A DNA stretch of 58,072 bases, taken from positions 1 through 58,072 of the forward strand of contig CALXLI010000041.1 of NCBI GenBank assembly GCA_944389155.1, given 5' to 3'. This stretch comes from an uncultured Spirochaetaceae bacterium (GTDB taxonomy: Bacteria; Spirochaetota; Spirochaetia; Sphaerochaetales; Sphaerochaetaceae). The position numbers and the translations under genes were made by a program. Of the stretch, positions 33,342 through 47,684 are shown piece by piece (the first letter of the stretch is position 1; every line of letters begins with the position of its first letter). A model generated the notes under the pieces. The model worked only from the letters and a program-made list of their open reading frames with translations, made no database searches and was not told the origin of the DNA.

Positions 33342-33345
33342 TGAT

Positions 33346-33376
33346 AGAGGGGACTGCACAGAGCAGTCCTCTTTTT
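33346..33376 (+). terminator. Terminator of hsp20
   Basis: GAGGGGACTGC / GCAGTCCTC with a 5-nt loop and one bulge, followed by TTTTTT. The GGACTGC stem is the same as in the pta terminator. Confidence 0.9.
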
Positions 33377-33377
33377 T

Positions 33378-33407
33378 GTAGACATGATTGTTAAATTTCT
33401 GTTATTC
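33378..33407 (+). promoter_or_regulatory. pyr operon promoter
   Basis: TAGACA (33378-33383), 18 nt, TATTCT (33402-33407). Transcription would start near 33414, just before the leader Shine-Dalgarno GAAGGAGG (33413-33420). Confidence 0.5.
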
Positions 33408-33426
33408 TCTTTCGAAGGAGGCTCAG

Positions 33427-33549
33427 ATGACCTTGAAAATGGCTTTGATCAAAGCGAAAAGGTTTCTAGGGCCTGATTGTTTCATTTTGTGTTTGTTATT
33501 GCCGGGTATGTATCCGGCTTTTTTATTGACTATAGGAGATTGCAGATGA
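33427..33549 (+). CDS. pyrL: pyr leader peptide (PyrL-like), 40 aa
   Basis: A 40-codon ORF with a strong Shine-Dalgarno (AAGGAGG, 6 nt before the ATG). Its middle is encoded by a U-rich tract (33478-33500, reading as Cys, Phe, Ile and Leu codons). The tract runs directly into the terminator hairpin at 33501-33524, which lies inside the ORF. The TGA overlaps the pyrB ATG (ATGA at 33546-33549). This is the architecture of E. coli pyrL-pyrBI. There, low UTP makes polymerase pause in the U-tract, the ribosome catches up and blocks the terminator, and pyrB is expressed. The peptide itself need not be conserved. Confidence 0.75.
   Translation: MTLKMALIKAKRFLGPDCFILCLLLPGMYPAFLLTIGDCR
33501..33524 (+). 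terminator. pyr attenuator
   Basis: GCCGG / CCGGC stem, extendable through GTA/TAT, followed by six Ts at 33519-33524. It is placed between the promoter and pyrB, inside the leader ORF, 22 nt before the pyrB ATG. Confidence 0.8.
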
Positions 33550-35132
33550 ACGTTTTCGCTTCAAGATCGTTATGTGTTATTGAGGATTTCTCAATCAACG
33601 AGCGTCGCTACTTCTTTCAGAAGGTCCATGAACTGAAGAGCGCAATACTGGCAAACGATGAAGAGACGATGGATAAGTTCAGGATCAATGACCCTGACTT
33701 TGGAATCTATGAAGTATTTCTTGAAGATAGCACGAGAACCAAGGAATCATTCAGGAATGCTGCTAAGTTCCATCACGCAAAGGTATCAGAGCTTCTTTGC
33801 TCATCCTCATCCATAAACAAGGGTGAAAGCTATGCAGATACGTTCAACATGCTCTCCGGTTACAGCAACCGCATCTTCATAGTGAGAAGCAAGGTTGAAG
33901 GGCTTACAAAGTGGCTTTCCGAGGAGTGCTCGGAATATGCTGAGAGAAATGGGCTGCCTTATCGTCCTGCTTTCATAAATGCAGGGGATGGCAAGCACGA
34001 GCATCCTACCCAGGAGCTGCTGGATGAGTTCTCGTTCCTTGAGGATCTGGACATGTCGTTTGACAGCATTCATGTAGCTCTTGTCGGCGATCTATATCAT
34101 GGACGCACTGTGCATTCAAAGGCAGATGGCCTCAAGATCTTCAATCATGTCAAGGTTGACCTCATAGCTCCGTCTGAGCTCATGATGCCTGAAAGCTATA
34201 TAGAGAAGATGAACGAGAACGGCTTTGACGTTACGCTTTATTCCTCGATTGAGGAGTATCTCAGGAGTGGAGATATCGCAAAACTATGGTATTTCACAAG
34301 GCCACAGCTTGAGAGGATGGGTGAGAGGATCCTTCAGAAACAGGATATATTGAGAGAAGCCATCACATTCAGAAAGGACTTCCTTCCATATCTTAAGGAA
34401 GGAACCAAGTTCTACCATCCGCTTCCTCGTCATAAAGAGCATCCAACCATTCCTACATGGCTTGACAAGACAGAGCTCAACGGATGGGAGAGGCAGGCGA
34501 TAAACGGAATGTACTGCAGGATGGTGCTTCTATCGCTGATTGCTGGACGCATAGGCGATGATTATGTCCCGATTCCCGGTGAGCATGATGCGGACCTGAA
34601 GACAGAGGAGTATATCATCAAGGTTGAGCCAAGCGACAGGAAGAAGGATAAGAACTACTCTGAAGGCGTCAGGCCTATATCTGATGGCATAGTGATAGAT
34701 CATATCTGCAAGGGAGACGAGCCAAGCGTTATCCGCTCGCATATGCGCCTTATATCCTCGGTTCTGGGACTGGATGATGGCAGAGGTGGAGAGTGGATCT
34801 CAACAGGTTCTGATGGCAAATATAAAGGCATAATATTCCGTCCAGGATGCAGGACGCTTGAGAGAAAGGACCTGAAGAGGCTGGCGGCCGTTGCCCCTCA
34901 CTGCACGCTCAATATAATCAGGGATGGCCGTGTTGTCGAGAAATACAGGACCCATATGCCTCCTCGCATATACAACTTCGACGATCTCTGCTGTCAGAAT
35001 GAAGCCTGCATATCGAATCCGGTGAATGGAGAGGGCGTTGCTTCCTCATTCATCCGTACTCCAGATGGGCATTTTGCCTGTGCATACTGCGGTCGTTTCC
35101 ACAGTTTCAAGGAAATTTGGAAAAAACATTAA
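33546..35132 (+). CDS. pyrBI: Aspartate carbamoyltransferase, catalytic-regulatory fusion (PyrB-PyrI)
   Basis: A 528-residue fusion catalysing carbamoyl phosphate plus aspartate to carbamoyl aspartate. The catalytic part (about 1-325) shows the phosphate-binding DSTRT near 61, KHEHPTQELLD near 150 and PLPRHKEHP near 300. The regulatory part (about 355-528) ends with the PyrI zinc site: Cys pairs in CQNEAC and CAYC. So nucleotide control is probably retained within one chain. The start at 33546 has AGGAGA upstream; the frame is open to 33477 but without a good start. First gene of pyrBI-E-F-DK-C. Confidence 0.94.
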   Translation: MNVFASRSLCVIEDFSINERRYFFQKVHELKSAILANDEETMDKFRINDPDFGIYEVFLEDSTRTKESFRNAAKFHHAKVSELLCSSSSINKGESYADTFNMLSGYSNRIFIVRSKVEGLTKWLSEECSEYAERNGLPYRPAFINAGDGKHEHPTQELLDEFSFLEDLDMSFDSIHVALVGDLYHGRTVHSKADGLKIFNHVKVDLIAPSELMMPESYIEKMNENGFDVTLYSSIEEYLRSGDIAKLWYFTRPQLERMGERILQKQDILREAITFRKDFLPYLKEGTKFYHPLPRHKEHPTIPTWLDKTELNGWERQAINGMYCRMVLLSLIAGRIGDDYVPIPGEHDADLKTEEYIIKVEPSDRKKDKNYSEGVRPISDGIVIDHICKGDEPSVIRSHMRLISSVLGLDDGRGGEWISTGSDGKYKGIIFRPGCRTLERKDLKRLAAVAPHCTLNIIRDGRVVEKYRTHMPPRIYNFDDLCCQNEACISNPVNGEGVASSFIRTPDGHFACAYCGRFHSFKEIWKKH

Positions 35133-35152: not shown

Positions 35153-35857
35153 ATGAGCAATATGAAGAAACTAGAAGAAATAACAGAATATTACGGACCG
35201 ATTCTCGCAAAAGGCGCATTTGAGCTAGGCGCAATCAGGCTTTCAACAGATAACCCATTCACATGGGTTTCAGGCTATCGCATGCCAATCTACAACGATA
35301 ACAGGCAGTTCCTGGCAAAGCCTAAGTACAGGGCACTGATAAGGGATGCCTTTGCAGATATCCTGGACTCGATGGAGGTTCAGGTTGATAACGTTGCAGG
35401 CACGGCTACAGCTGGCATCCCTCATGCGACAAGCCTCGCTGATATGATCTACAAGCCCCTGAGCTATGTGCGTTCGTCCTCTAAGGACCATGGGCTTGGC
35501 CATCAGATAGAGGGCCTTGGGCAGAGCGGCTCATATGAAGGCAGGAACGTGCTTCTCATTGAGGACCTTATCTCAACAGGATCTTCATCGCTTAAAGCTG
35601 TCGAGGCTATCAGAAGCGCGGGCGGTGTATGCAACCTCTGCCTTGCCATCTTCACGTATGGATTCAAGACAGCAGAGGATGCTTTTGCTGCCCAGAACTG
35701 TGAATTCCATACAATCCTTTCATATGATGTGATGGTTCGTACAGCCGAGAAGACAGGATATATTACAGGAGAGGCGGCAGAAGCGCTCCGTGAATGGAGG
35801 CAGGATCCATTTGGCTGGGGCGAGAAGAGGGGATTCCCAAGGGAGATGAAGGCATGA
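35153..35857 (+). CDS. pyrE: Orotate phosphoribosyltransferase
   Basis: A 234-residue type I phosphoribosyltransferase converting orotate and PRPP to OMP. The PRPP loop VLLIEDLISTGSSS lies near residue 131, and the TATAGIPHA flexible region near 83. It sits 20 nt after pyrBI; AAGGAG lies about 15 nt before the ATG, a long spacing. The next ATG, three codons in, is also possible. It overlaps pyrF by 4 nt. Confidence 0.94.
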   Translation: MSNMKKLEEITEYYGPILAKGAFELGAIRLSTDNPFTWVSGYRMPIYNDNRQFLAKPKYRALIRDAFADILDSMEVQVDNVAGTATAGIPHATSLADMIYKPLSYVRSSSKDHGLGHQIEGLGQSGSYEGRNVLLIEDLISTGSSSLKAVEAIRSAGGVCNLCLAIFTYGFKTAEDAFAAQNCEFHTILSYDVMVRTAEKTGYITGEAAEALREWRQDPFGWGEKRGFPREMKA

Positions 35858-36735
35858 GCTACATAGATCTTCTAAGAGAGAGCGCAAAGGAAAGCGGGAA
35901 TATCGTATGCATGGGATTGGACCCTGTCCTTTCAGTGCTTCCTGCATCAGAGGAGCCTGTACGTGACCGTATTGGTTCGTACTTTTCGGAGCTTTTCAGG
36001 AGAATGAGGCTTGAAGGGGTTGCCCCTGCGGCCTTCAAACCTAATATCGGATACTATCAGAGGCTGGACAATCCTAGAGCAGAGGACTTTTCGGGTTCTC
36101 TTGCGCTGGTTGATGTCCTTGAGCTTCTGGAGACATATTTCCCAGGAATTCCGGTGATTCTCGACAGCAAGCGTGGAGATATTGCAAAATCCAGCGAAAA
36201 CTATGCATCGGAAGCATTTGATGCGTGGGGTGCTGACGCTGTCACGGTCTCTCCTTATATGGGGCATGATTCAGTGCTTCCGTTCGCCTATGAGGATAAA
36301 GGCGTGTATGTACTGAATCGTACATCGAATCCAGGGGCAGCGGAATTCCAGGATCAGAACGTCCTGGACAAGGTTGATGAGAAGGAGCTTTATCCGCTAT
36401 ACAGGGCCGTTGCCCATCATATTGCGGCATGGAGTTCAGAGCACCCTGGCATCGGTGCTGTTGTCGGTGCTACCAATCCTAAGGAGCTTGGTGATATTGC
36501 CTCAATCTATGCTGGACGTGATATCCCGATGCTCATCCCTGGCGTTGGCAGCCAAGGGGGAAGCGCATCGGATGTTATGGCTATGATGAAGAGCGCTGGT
36601 TATGAGCTTGATCTTTCGCGTATCAATTCATCATCCGGCCTTACCCATCCATGGAAGAAGGGAAATGCTCCTGAAGACTGGCTTGAGAAGTGCATGGCTG
36701 CGATACATAGCCTGATAGAAGAGGCTTCGCTCTGA
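35854..36735 (+). CDS. pyrF: Orotidine 5'-phosphate decarboxylase (type 2)
   Basis: A 293-residue TIM-barrel decarboxylase forming UMP. The catalytic Lys-Asp pair is in ILDSKRGDIAKS near residue 105. The order AFKPNIGYY, then SKRGDI, then IPGVGSQGG marks the longer type 2 (mycobacterial-like) subfamily. The start is the ATG inside the pyrE stop (ATGA), not the earlier in-frame ATG at 35794 within pyrE. It ends by sharing one base with the next gene. Confidence 0.93.
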   Translation: MSYIDLLRESAKESGNIVCMGLDPVLSVLPASEEPVRDRIGSYFSELFRRMRLEGVAPAAFKPNIGYYQRLDNPRAEDFSGSLALVDVLELLETYFPGIPVILDSKRGDIAKSSENYASEAFDAWGADAVTVSPYMGHDSVLPFAYEDKGVYVLNRTSNPGAAEFQDQNVLDKVDEKELYPLYRAVAHHIAAWSSEHPGIGAVVGATNPKELGDIASIYAGRDIPMLIPGVGSQGGSASDVMAMMKSAGYELDLSRINSSSGLTHPWKKGNAPEDWLEKCMAAIHSLIEEASL

Positions 36736-38405
36736 TGGATGCATTATCTTTTCTCAGAGGAAGCCATAAGCGGGGTGAACTGCACCTTGCAACTGTTTCA
36801 GGTGTCGCATCTACAAAGAAGGAGCTGATTGAGCTTTTCGATCGCTCCATTCCCAGTGTGGATATAATAACGACAAAAAGCTTCCAGGTAGTGCCTACGC
36901 CTGGCAATAGGGAGCCTGTTGTCTGCTCTCCAGCCCCTGGCAACTTCGGTAATTCCGTAGGGCTTAGGAATCCTGGGATGGAAAGCGCTCTTGAAGAACT
37001 GAAGGAGATAAGGGAAAACGGTATGCGGGCGCTTCTTTGCGTTTCGCTTGCAGCATCCAATCCTGATGATTTCATAACGCTTGTCAAGGCTTTCGATCCT
37101 GTTGCGGATATCCTTGAGCTGAACTTCTCCTGTCCTCATGCGCAGGCTGGATTCGGAGCATCTATCGGCACAGATAAGGAAATTGCTTCGGATTATGTCA
37201 GAAGGATAGTGTCTGCGTATCCTGAGAGGCGTTCTCCCCTCGTTGTCAAGCTGACCCCGAATGTCCCTGATATCGCGGATATAGCGGAAAGCGTGATAAA
37301 TGCAGGCGCTGATGGAATTGCCGCAATCAACACAGTCGGCCCTAAGCTTTATATAGAACCACATTCAGGTTCCCCGATCCTCAACAATAATCTTGGCGGG
37401 AAAGGCGGTGCCAGCGGAGAATGGGTGAAAGAAGAGGCTGTAAAGGCTGTCAAGGCCATCAGGGAGAGAATAGGGGATGAGCCTATAATACTTGGCATGG
37501 GCGGTGTATCTTCTGCCGAGGATGCAAGACGTCTTGTCAGTGCTGGTGCTGATAGCGTTGGCATCGGGTCTGCAATCTCCCGTGTGCATCCAAGGGATTG
37601 GGAATCTTTCTTCTCAGCGATCAAGAACGGCAGAGACGCATCGCAGTATCTTTCAAAGGAGAACGCGCTGGAGTACACGCCTCATAAGATCGTCAGGAAG
37701 GAAACCTTCGGTGATGATGTCGTTGTCTTCACACTCGATGGCAAAAGCAATGCGGAGCCTGGTGAATTCATGTTCATCTGGGTACCGGGAAAAGGTGAGA
37801 AACCATTTTCCGTTGCTGTGAATGATCCGCTTACGTTCCTTATAAAGAAGAGAGGCATGTTCACTTCGTCGCTCTTTGATATGAGAGAGGGAGACACTCT
37901 CTATACAAGAGGCCTCTATGGAAGTCCGATGGTCTATGAGAAGACCAGGAGAGCCCTTCTGATAGGAGGGGGAACCGGAGCGGCTGTGCTTCCATTGATA
38001 GCAGAGCGTCTTTCGAAAGACGGTACGGAGATGGATATAAGAGTTGGCGTTGTTCATCTGAATAATGGCAAGGAGCCCTTGGAGGATGTCCTCTCATCGT
38101 ATGGCACATTCAGGGCTGTTGCCGATGACGGTAAGCCTGGACGTGTCCTTGACACAATCACTGAAGCGGATCTTGCTGGTGATACTGCACTGTACGCTGT
38201 AGGACCTGGCAAGATGATGGAAGGAGCTGCGAAGAGAGCTGAGAGCCTGGGACTTTCCGATGAAAGGATATATCTATCGATGGAGAAGAATACGATGTGC
38301 GGAATCGGCATGTGCGGTGAGTGCGTATGCGGTTCACATCTGCCATGCAAGGAAGGTACGTTCTTTACCTGGAAGACCCTGAAGGAGAACAATGTAGCGT
38401 TATGA
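36735..38405 (+). CDS. pyrDK: Dihydroorotate dehydrogenase-electron transfer subunit fusion (PyrD-PyrK)
   Basis: A 556-residue fusion. The N-terminal barrel (about 1-310) is a class 1B dihydroorotate dehydrogenase: the catalytic base is Cys in NFSCPHAQAGFG near 132, and INTVGPKLYIEP and GMGGVSSAEDA bind FMN. The C-terminal part (about 315-556) is PyrK: an FAD domain, GGGTGAAVLPL for NAD, and a 2Fe-2S site CGIGMCGECVCGSHLPC. Class 1B enzymes normally use two separate chains to pass electrons to NAD+; here they are one. It sits between pyrF and pyrC with overlapping starts and stops. Confidence 0.9.
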   Translation: MDALSFLRGSHKRGELHLATVSGVASTKKELIELFDRSIPSVDIITTKSFQVVPTPGNREPVVCSPAPGNFGNSVGLRNPGMESALEELKEIRENGMRALLCVSLAASNPDDFITLVKAFDPVADILELNFSCPHAQAGFGASIGTDKEIASDYVRRIVSAYPERRSPLVVKLTPNVPDIADIAESVINAGADGIAAINTVGPKLYIEPHSGSPILNNNLGGKGGASGEWVKEEAVKAVKAIRERIGDEPIILGMGGVSSAEDARRLVSAGADSVGIGSAISRVHPRDWESFFSAIKNGRDASQYLSKENALEYTPHKIVRKETFGDDVVVFTLDGKSNAEPGEFMFIWVPGKGEKPFSVAVNDPLTFLIKKRGMFTSSLFDMREGDTLYTRGLYGSPMVYEKTRRALLIGGGTGAAVLPLIAERLSKDGTEMDIRVGVVHLNNGKEPLEDVLSSYGTFRAVADDGKPGRVLDTITEADLAGDTALYAVGPGKMMEGAAKRAESLGLSDERIYLSMEKNTMCGIGMCGECVCGSHLPCKEGTFFTWKTLKENNVAL

Positions 38406-39439
38406 TAGATCCCCATGTGCACCTGAGAGACTGGAAGCAAAGCGACAAGGAGACCGTGCTGCACGGTATGAGCGTGGCCTCCCGCCTTGGCTTTACCCAT
38501 CTTTTCGATATGCCAAATACCAACCCTCCTTTGACTTCAAGAAGCACGATCCTTGAGCGTCTTGCCCTTGGTGGTGAGAGTGCTGAGAAAACAGGAGTTT
38601 CATATCATATATGGGCTGGGATAACGAATGATGAGAGCGAGATCGAGGAAGCTGTATCAATGCATTCAGAGCTTTTCCCTCTCATCATCGGGCTTAAGAT
38701 GTTTGCAGGCCACAGTACAGGGAACATGGGGATAATCGGAGTTGAAAACCAAAGAAAGGTATTCCAGACGCTGAAGCGGGCAGGTTATGAAGGTGTTCTT
38801 GCGGTGCATGCTGAGAAGGAGGAGCTTCTATCTCCTGAGCTCTACATTCCTGGCCGCTATGAAACACATAGCGATGCACGTCCAGGCATCGCGGAGACAG
38901 AGAGCGTCAAGGACTTGGTATCACTTGCATTGGAAACAGGCTTTGAAGGTACTCTTCATATCTGCCATGTATCTGCAAAGAGTACGATAGAATACATTGT
39001 TTCCCAGCGTCAGAATCTGAAGATCACGATGGGAGCCACTCCCCATCATGCACTTCTTACGAGGGAAGATGCGAAGAATCAGGCATTGATGCTTAAGATG
39101 AATCCACCGTTGCGTTCCGAAGAAGACAGAAAGGCTGTTTTTGATGCGCTTTTGGATGGCACGATAGACTGGGCAGAGTCAGACCATGCTCCCCATACAG
39201 AAGAGGATAAGGAAAAAGGCGCTTCTGGCATTCCTGGTCTTCCTGGAATGGATCTCCTTCTATATAGGCTCAGAGAGGCTGGGTGCTCAGAAGAGAGGTT
39301 GAAGGCTGCATTTGGTGGCAATGTGATAAGAACATTCGGCCTTGATGCTGAGGATATTGTCCTGTCGCAAGACCCTTATGAACTTTATAAGGCTGAAAGT
39401 TCTCAGTATTCCTGGAATCCTTATTCCGATTGCAATTGA
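38402..39439 (+). CDS. pyrC: Dihydroorotase
   Basis: A 345-residue amidohydrolase closing carbamoyl aspartate to dihydroorotate. Metal ligands are visible: DPHVHLRD at 3-10, His in VHAEKEE and LHICHVSAKS, and the catalytic Asp in WAESDHAPHT. The start at 38402 overlaps the pyrDK stop (ATGA); the frame is open further upstream inside pyrDK but this start matches the family. Last gene of the pyr operon, followed by a hairpin at 39441. Confidence 0.93.
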   Translation: MIDPHVHLRDWKQSDKETVLHGMSVASRLGFTHLFDMPNTNPPLTSRSTILERLALGGESAEKTGVSYHIWAGITNDESEIEEAVSMHSELFPLIIGLKMFAGHSTGNMGIIGVENQRKVFQTLKRAGYEGVLAVHAEKEELLSPELYIPGRYETHSDARPGIAETESVKDLVSLALETGFEGTLHICHVSAKSTIEYIVSQRQNLKITMGATPHHALLTREDAKNQALMLKMNPPLRSEEDRKAVFDALLDGTIDWAESDHAPHTEEDKEKGASGIPGLPGMDLLLYRLREAGCSEERLKAAFGGNVIRTFGLDAEDIVLSQDPYELYKAESSQYSWNPYSDCN

Positions 39440-46331: not shown

Positions 46332-47684
46332 ATGTACGCTCTGATTCTCACTGCTTTCATTTATCTCTCGCATTTTGCGCCGTGGGTTGTCTCACGGCCT
46401 TTGCTTTTCGTTCCTGTCCTCTTCCTTTACGTTCTTCTTTTCCAGAGGGATATAGAACGTTCTCTTCAATTCATGATTACCGCGCTTCTTTTCCTTGTGC
46501 TGTCATCCTCCATTACATGCTCGTCAGTCACATTTGGGTTCGATGAGACTGAAATAGCCGCTCTGTATGGCACTGTGATACAGGATAGCTCACAGAAGAA
46601 GGGCCGGATGTCTGGATACAGGCTGTCTATCAGAGCCGCAGAGGATAAAAACGGATCTGTTGCAACATCCCGTGGTTCTATATATGTGCTTTCTGATCAG
46701 GCGGAATGCTTCTATGGTGACTATATCCGTGTTGCAGGGTATCTTTCAGATGGGATTTTCATAGGTTCCACAGCAATTGTCAGCAGGTCTTTCGGAGGGA
46801 GTATCCGATCAGAGGTTATTTCCTGGATAAAGGACAGAATCCGCGGAGGCGGCGCTGGAGAGCTTGCAATGCGGCTTCTTCTTGGATTTGGCGAGTATGG
46901 TGTGTATGCGCTTTCGGATGATGCGCGCCTTTCCGGCCTTTCCCACATATTGGCTCTCTCTGGAATGCATCTTTCGCTTTTGGCCTCGCTCTTATCGATT
47001 CCCTTGTCGCTTTTCCCTTCAAAGAAGCTTAGGAAAATCGTCATATCGCTGTTCCTGCTGTTCTTTTCCTTCCTTTCAGGTTGGCGGCCATCGCTTGTCC
47101 GCGCCTTCATATTCCGAACTCTCCTGGATATGAGGATAGAGCTTGATGAAGCTTTCATGCTCTCTGCCATAATCCTCTTCCTGCTGTTCCCTGAGGCCAT
47201 TGCTGATCTAGGGGCAGTGTATTCATTTGTCTCACTTGCTGCCATCTTTCTCTTCTCATCTTCAATTGATAGGGGAATTAGGACGCTCTTGCCGCTTTGC
47301 CCTTCCATTTCGCTTTCAGTCTCAGCATCTGCTGCAGCGATTGTCTTCTCTGTGCCGATTACACTCAGCGTATTCGGCTCATACCAGATCGGTGCGATAA
47401 TCACAACCTTTCCGATGACTTTCATCATTTCATTCTATATGGGGCTGGCAATACTGGTGCTTGTCCTGCCTGCATTCCAACCTTTGCTTGGAGTTTCATA
47501 TGCCATCATAGAGCATCTCTTTTCGCTTTCTGCGCTATTCCCGGAGTTCTCGGATATCCGGCCGTATCTCCTTATTGCTGCAGCCTCCATTGTCCTTATT
47601 GTGCTTGGTCTGCTATCCTCAAGCCATGTGGAGTCTCAATTACAGCAGCATAAGCGAAATAGCGAAGGTCCTTTCATCACATGA
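46332..47684 (+). CDS. comEC: ComEC/Rec2-family DNA uptake channel
   Basis: A 450-residue polytopic membrane protein. The N-terminal soluble insert (about 70-150) fits the OB-like DUF4131, and the competence domain carries the signature LSHILALSGMHLSLL near 210 and GWRPSLVRAF near 252. The C-terminal metallo-beta-lactamase part of Bacillus ComEC is absent, giving the short form. In competent bacteria ComEC passes single-stranded DNA through the inner membrane; whether this cell is competent cannot be told. No Shine-Dalgarno; the ksgA start lies inside its 3' end. Confidence 0.85.
   Translation: MYALILTAFIYLSHFAPWVVSRPLLFVPVLFLYVLLFQRDIERSLQFMITALLFLVLSSSITCSSVTFGFDETEIAALYGTVIQDSSQKKGRMSGYRLSIRAAEDKNGSVATSRGSIYVLSDQAECFYGDYIRVAGYLSDGIFIGSTAIVSRSFGGSIRSEVISWIKDRIRGGGAGELAMRLLLGFGEYGVYALSDDARLSGLSHILALSGMHLSLLASLLSIPLSLFPSKKLRKIVISLFLLFFSFLSGWRPSLVRAFIFRTLLDMRIELDEAFMLSAIILFLLFPEAIADLGAVYSFVSLAAIFLFSSSIDRGIRTLLPLCPSISLSVSASAAAIVFSVPITLSVFGSYQIGAIITTFPMTFIISFYMGLAILVLVLPAFQPLLGVSYAIIEHLFSLSALFPEFSDIRPYLLIAAASIVLIVLGLLSSSHVESQLQQHKRNSEGPFIT

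Follow-up and report, generated by a model that had tools for sequence, protein, structure and literature searches.

A probable pyrBI-type attenuator in front of the pyrimidine operon of a Sphaerochaetaceae bacterium and its relatives

The 58,072-nt contig of an uncultured Spirochaetaceae bacterium analysed here in its entirety (the window) carries a pyrimidine biosynthesis operon preceded by a short leader; all features described below lie on the forward strand. Downstream of the leader there are five ORFs in the order pyrBI-E-F-DK-C. The first, pyrBI (33546..35132), encodes fused catalytic and regulatory chains of aspartate carbamoyltransferase (Pfam matches; NF009916 above its cut-off). It is followed by pyrE for orotate phosphoribosyltransferase (35153..35857, TIGR00336), pyrF for OMP decarboxylase (35794..36735, TIGR02127), a pyrD-pyrK fusion (36735..38405), and pyrC for dihydroorotase (38321..39439, TIGR00857, below its cut-off). 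The apparent pyrD-pyrK fusion is a single ORF of 556 amino acids, in which residues 18–297 resemble the dihydroorotate dehydrogenase PyrD (NF005574) and residues 326–552 resemble the electron-transfer subunit (NF000796), both matches being below the equivalog cut-offs. The source genome belongs to the Sphaerochaetaceae and is Ornithospirochaeta-like. The closest PyrBI proteins (95–86% identity) come from Spirochaetales/Spirochaetaceae metagenome-assembled genomes (MAGs), including Candidatus Ornithospirochaeta stercoripullorum; the PyrBI proteins of Bullifex porci and Sphaerochaeta are more distant than this group.

The gene upstream, hsp20, has a separate terminator (33345..33376) that lies outside the attenuator, so the pyr leader forms a unit of its own. 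A promoter-like site, weak compared to the consensus, occupies positions 33379..33408 and consists of TAGACA (33379–33384), an 18-nt spacer, and TATTCT with an extended −10 TG (TGTTATTCT, last base at 33408). Transcription would start near 33414–33416, giving a 5′ untranslated region of ~12 nt that opens at the Shine-Dalgarno (SD) sequence. In the family, an extended −10 element (TGNTANNNT) is found no more than 40 nt from the leader ATG in 54 of 65 leaders. The leader SD of the window is strong (GAAGGAGG, 33414..33421) and precedes an ORF of 40 codons plus stop (33427..33549, ATG at 33427), whose predicted product is MTLKMALIKAKRFLGPDCFILCLLLPGMYPAFLLTIGDCR. This ORF spans an intrinsic terminator and extends into the start of PyrBI: its TGA (33547–33549) shares bases with the ATG at 33546 (ATGA), an arrangement that may couple translation of the leader and pyrBI in this species. 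The terminator (33501..33526) has a 7-bp stem, with the stem-loop GCCGGGTATGTATCCGGC at 33501–33518 followed by TTTTTT. Directly 5′ of it lies a tract with 60% T (33471..33500), a candidate region for UTP-sensitive polymerase pausing. The initial annotation had proposed a complete pyrL-type attenuator here, and each of its parts was located in the order it gave: promoter-like site, SD, 40-codon ORF, U-rich tract, terminator, and stop/start overlap.

Taken alone, the window leader is statistically unremarkable. One promoter-like and one terminator-like site are no more than shuffled versions of region 33378–33549 yield, and the leader as a whole is not unusually structured (z = −0.79), unlike the short terminator segment (−11.2 kcal/mol, z = −3.07). 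The question is therefore decided by relatives, and the evidence that exceeds chance is comparative. We collected regions upstream of pyrBI from 80 contigs and from further genomes of the class and located the terminator in each; intrinsic terminators were detected in 137 upstream regions of relatives. Terminators were picked by search, and all structures considered in this work are predictions. The leader start was defined as the ATG with the best SD, irrespective of ORF length, and d was taken as the distance separating the last base of the stop codon from the hairpin. Leaders with less than 75% mutual identity were counted as distinct, yielding 46 leaders; this filter lessens but does not remove the effect of shared ancestry, and the leader counts below are thus not counts of independent events.

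In the real frame, 45 of 46 ORFs either end with d ≤ 9 nt or continue past the terminator, compared to 15 of 46 in frame +1 and 12 of 46 in frame +2. In an earlier set, 43 of 44 leaders reached the hairpin, while 500 dinucleotide shuffles gave 15.1 ± 3.1 (maximum 24). The only leader that misses, L092, does so due to the automatic choice of the start; a GTG-started ORF at this locus enters the hairpin region. The point at which the ORF ends is variable, with the stop located 0–9 nt before the hairpin in 21 of 46 leaders and inside or beyond it in 24 of 46. Since the ORF end is not conserved, and in most relatives the stop lies within the hairpin or 0–9 nt upstream of it, the stop/start overlap, judged from these sequences, is a local version of a rule that the ribosome must reach the hairpin. 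As a feature of the window species the overlap stands, but it is not a conserved trait: within the genus it is matched only in the nearest relative (L031), and it can also be read by eye in L120, from another family. In E. coli, a ribosome at a stop codon a few nucleotides from the terminator suppresses termination (PMC4824070). A limit of ~9 nt is what direct occlusion of the hairpin by a ribosome would need.

The leader peptides themselves are dissimilar across the family, and their codons are not conserved. In the same pairs, pN/pS was 0.70 for the leader and 0.18 for pyrBI codons. Because the peptide drifts in this way, selection seems to act on the act of leader translation, that is, on its reach, and not on the product. 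Lack of conservation of the leader ORF among relatives had been named as grounds for abandoning the attenuator reading; instead, the position, SD, and reach of the ORF are all kept despite peptide drift. Some local regularities can be seen in the peptides. In Sphaerochaeta and relatives (L090, L093, L096, L098, L113, and L121), they open with a recurrent R/K-x-R-Y-R, which could be a residual constraint on the peptide, on codon rate, or on the helix described below. Leaders L187, L188, and L128 (family f22) and L189 and L190 (family f26) have a common K-K-P-D/E stretch and no clear SD. L187 and L188 also contain a GGGG...CCCC hairpin just 5′ of the U run, perhaps a separate pause hairpin.

Enrichment in T immediately before the hairpin is likewise a family property. 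The T content of the last 30 nt before the terminator is 0.60 in the window pyr leader, compared to a mean of 0.28 and a maximum of 50% at five other strong terminators of the window. For the 46 distinct leaders, mean U content over the 30 nt preceding the terminator is 44%. Mean T content in the family climbs toward the hairpin: it is 0.21 at a distance of 70 nt and 0.50 at 20–11 nt, with a range of 0.42–0.50 close to the hairpin. The corresponding values for E. coli pyrL are 0.40 in the last 30 nt and 0.13 in the preceding 30 nt. A terminator-like site at 46377 in the window (50% T upstream) sits within a coding ORF and was therefore rejected as an attenuator.

The comparison of leaders revealed one more element, absent from the initial annotation: the leader SD/AUG is complementary to a stretch that ends ~13–22 nt before the terminator. 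In the window, the 5′ arm of this helix (helix I, 33418..33432) holds the leader SD and AUG, and the 3′, anti-SD arm is located at 33460..33475; the predicted duplex (−15.6 kcal/mol) is present in the minimum-energy fold. For the window species alone, helix I is not significant (duplex P = 0.075; z = −0.98 for the upstream fold), while the family statistic is strong. RNA preceding the terminator is more folded than shuffled sequences (mean z = −1.26, n = 46), and in most minimum-energy folds of the family, the leader's own SD/AUG supplies the 5′ strand of the outer helix. When the segment from −13 to +6 around the ATG was tested for duplex formation with the downstream leader, the mean z was −1.25 over 46 leaders, L055 included. 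This leader was left out of the tests that follow, since its automatically chosen start made the segment too short. The duplex 3′ end falls at −22 to −13 from the terminator in 80% of the remaining 45 leaders, compared to 25 ± 6% (maximum 42%) in shuffles. Pairing of an SD with its own leader (mean −13.2 kcal/mol) was stronger than in any of 10,000 random re-pairings (−10.47 ± 0.38 kcal/mol, best −11.96; 0 of 10,000 in the permutation test). SD-core pairing was 0.67, compared to 0.43 ± 0.05 in shuffles. The pyrBI SD, used as a control, gave no complementarity signal (P = 0.76).

A similar helix is predicted in well-known leaders. In the predicted fold of E. coli pyrL, the SD forms an outer helix with UCUUCCCG, whose 3′ end is at −16 (z = −2.55), and predicted helices in the leaders of Klebsiella, Proteus, and Aeromonas, taken from plasmid-collection records, end at −14, −15, and −24, respectively. 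By eye, like complementarity can be seen in Photobacterium and in Ilyobacter (Fusobacteria), where it is located farther from the terminator. In Ilyobacter polytropus (L237), an annotated “hypothetical protein” just 5′ of pyrB resembles a leader ORF; its SD region AGGTAGAAAA is complementary to the downstream TTTTTTCTACCT, and the ORF ends within a terminator-like hairpin.

Overall, the reach of the ORF, peptide drift, U enrichment before the terminator, SD/anti-SD complementarity, the layout in common with E. coli pyrL, and the lack of a detectable antiterminator and of detectable PyrR considered below support the pyrL-type reading, and we consider it likely that the pyrBI-E-F-DK-C operon is controlled by a pyrBI-type attenuator that couples transcription to translation. 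That UTP is the signal, that polymerase pauses and the leader is translated, and that events follow the order given here is what we infer. Polymerase would start near 33415, making the leader SD the first RNA to emerge. At low UTP, polymerase would be slowed in the U-rich tract and a loaded ribosome would keep pace with it; running up to or into the hairpin, this ribosome would block terminator folding, and the operon would be transcribed. At high UTP, polymerase would move fast, the SD/AUG would be recaptured by the anti-SD at 33460–33475, and no ribosome would follow; the terminator would then fold and transcription would end. Under this model, we infer that helix I may be a gate that closes the leader SD to late ribosomes, a pause hairpin, or both. 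A more general proposal, which we offer tentatively and give somewhat less than an even chance, is that pyrBI-type attenuators share this second, unrecognized gate: an anti-SD positioned a set number of nucleotides ahead of the terminator would recapture the SD/AUG, and only a ribosome loading within a brief interval governed by polymerase speed could open the operon. UTP would then be read twice, during ribosome loading and during catch-up, and Spirochaetia and Gammaproteobacteria would either have this design in common or have evolved it independently. Several points count against the attenuator reading: the promoter-like site is weak, helix I is not significant in the window species on its own, and in most relatives the ORF stops before or inside the hairpin, unlike in E. 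coli.

The hairpin could instead be controlled by PyrR or another RNA-binding protein, as pyr operons of many bacteria are under PyrR. A PyrR site had been named as the finding that would explain the hairpin away; neither the protein nor its RNA element was detected. The PyrR RNA element (RF00515) was not found in the window, where Rfam matches only tRNAs, or in any of 60 genomes of relatives. No PyrR protein scored above the curated cut-off in the genome to which the window belongs, which is a draft 89% complete, so that the conclusion of absence rests partly on relatives: of the 36 genus genomes searched, 32 likewise gave no protein above it. The other four encode PyrR. They point to a small subclade of the same genus (pyrR loci L111 and L218–L220; contigs L100, L104, and L108), in which the terminator before pyrBI is kept while the SD-ATG leader ORF has been lost or was never present; no PyrR RNA element was found in this subclade either, nor at the clostridial loci described below. 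Since the PyrR contigs have the terminator without the leader ORF, this looks like a swap of one control for another, and it argues against PyrR acting on the window leader; we regard control by PyrR or another RNA-binding protein as very unlikely. Hardly more probable is an attenuator of the amino acid (trp/his-like) type, in which a ribosome stalled at control codons switches between antiterminator and terminator. The leader peptide, upstream hairpin, and terminator it calls for are all present, and the Arg/Lys-rich starts of Sphaerochaeta leader peptides would fit. However, the left arm of the terminator does not pair with the leader beyond the level of shuffles (mean z = +0.59, 0 of 46 below −2), leader codons vary across the family with no conserved run of control codons, and the distance from stop to hairpin is ≤9 nt, while more than 20 nt separate the leader stop from the terminator in amino acid attenuators (PMC4824070).

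Selection for ORF reach would also be expected if the leader were insensitive to UTP, a constitutive upstream ORF keeping the region covered with ribosomes and the internal terminator serving as a check of translation capacity. This is unlikely, given that U is enriched immediately before the hairpin, that the context is strictly a pyrimidine operon, that the ORF is missing in PyrR-bearing relatives, and that the layout is the same as in the UTP-responsive E. coli leader. A further possibility refines the attenuator reading rather than replaces it: helix I may act only as a polymerase pause hairpin, with the hiding of the SD being incidental. Its 3′ end, 13–22 nt before the terminator, would put a hairpin-stabilized pause in the U-rich spacer, and a “hairpin pause” has been described on E. 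coli pyrL (PMC10135430). On the other hand, the 5′ arm is centered on the SD/AUG, as the excess of SD-core pairing indicates, and a pause on E. coli pyrL did not respond to NusA, nor did compensatory mutants restore it (PMC9291695); it was classed in that work as not hairpin-stabilized, though the authors place it ~24 nt from the earlier one. We consider the pause-only role possible, though on balance doubtful.

The initial annotation had suggested convergent or wider use of a mechanism known mainly from enterobacteria, and wider use is borne out in at least nine Spirochaetia families, several of them read by eye, and in Clostridia MAGs with a related operon. Beyond Sphaerochaetaceae, a leader ORF that reaches the terminator was found in families f3, f4, f5, f17, f22, f24, and f25 and in one genus of f26, again in several cases by eye; Spirochaetia families in which pyrBI apparently follows another gene directly have no leader. 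Five Clostridia MAG contigs (L080–L084) encode PyrBI 71–73% identical to that of the window and carry the leader, and their genomes also encode PyrR; a ZTP riboswitch near the operon on one of them is consistent with a genuine clostridial contig. The occurrence of a spirochaete-type PyrBI together with its leader in PyrR-encoding Clostridia suggests joint horizontal transfer of the operon and its switch. Regions upstream of carAB in the genus showed no such leader where the carA start was readable. In L222, L223, L226, L229, and L232, carA is preceded by repeated TTGTTGCAT- or GGTTGCAAC-like motifs, which hint at control by a DNA-binding regulator and not by attenuation.

Our literature search, which covered the primary literature in part, returned no report of ribosome-gated pyr attenuation in spirochaetes. 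If the proposed reading is correct, this type of pyrimidine attenuation occurs not only in proteobacteria but also in many families of a mostly PyrR-less spirochaete class, and selection in the leader targets where the ribosome can reach and not the peptide. The SD/anti-SD element, predicted in E. coli as well, could explain the timing of ribosome loading on pyr leaders.

An intrinsic terminator ahead of pyr genes is common to the spirochaete leaders and to PyrR-dependent attenuation (Bacillus, RF00515), but the latter requires PyrR and its binding loop, neither of which was found in the window species. With trp/his-type attenuators, the spirochaete leaders share a translated leader that would control an intrinsic terminator; those attenuators use an antiterminator, which was not found here, and place the terminator more than 20 nt from the stop, in contrast to ≤9 nt in spirochaetes. 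The pyrBI leaders of Klebsiella, Proteus, and Aeromonas belong to another phylum and precede separate pyrB and pyrI genes, but have the same SD/anti-SD helix, ending 14–24 nt before the terminator, and an ORF that runs into or through the hairpin. E. coli pyrL/pyrBI differs in that PyrB and PyrI are separate there and fused in the window species, in that many spirochaete ORFs end within the hairpin or shortly upstream of it, and in that the leaders cannot be aligned by eye. The two systems nevertheless have in common an SD, a leader ORF (44 codons in E. coli), a U-rich tract, no antiterminator, a GC-rich terminator within the ORF 30–50 nt before pyrB, and a predicted SD/anti-SD outer helix, whose 3′ end in E. 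coli is at −16.
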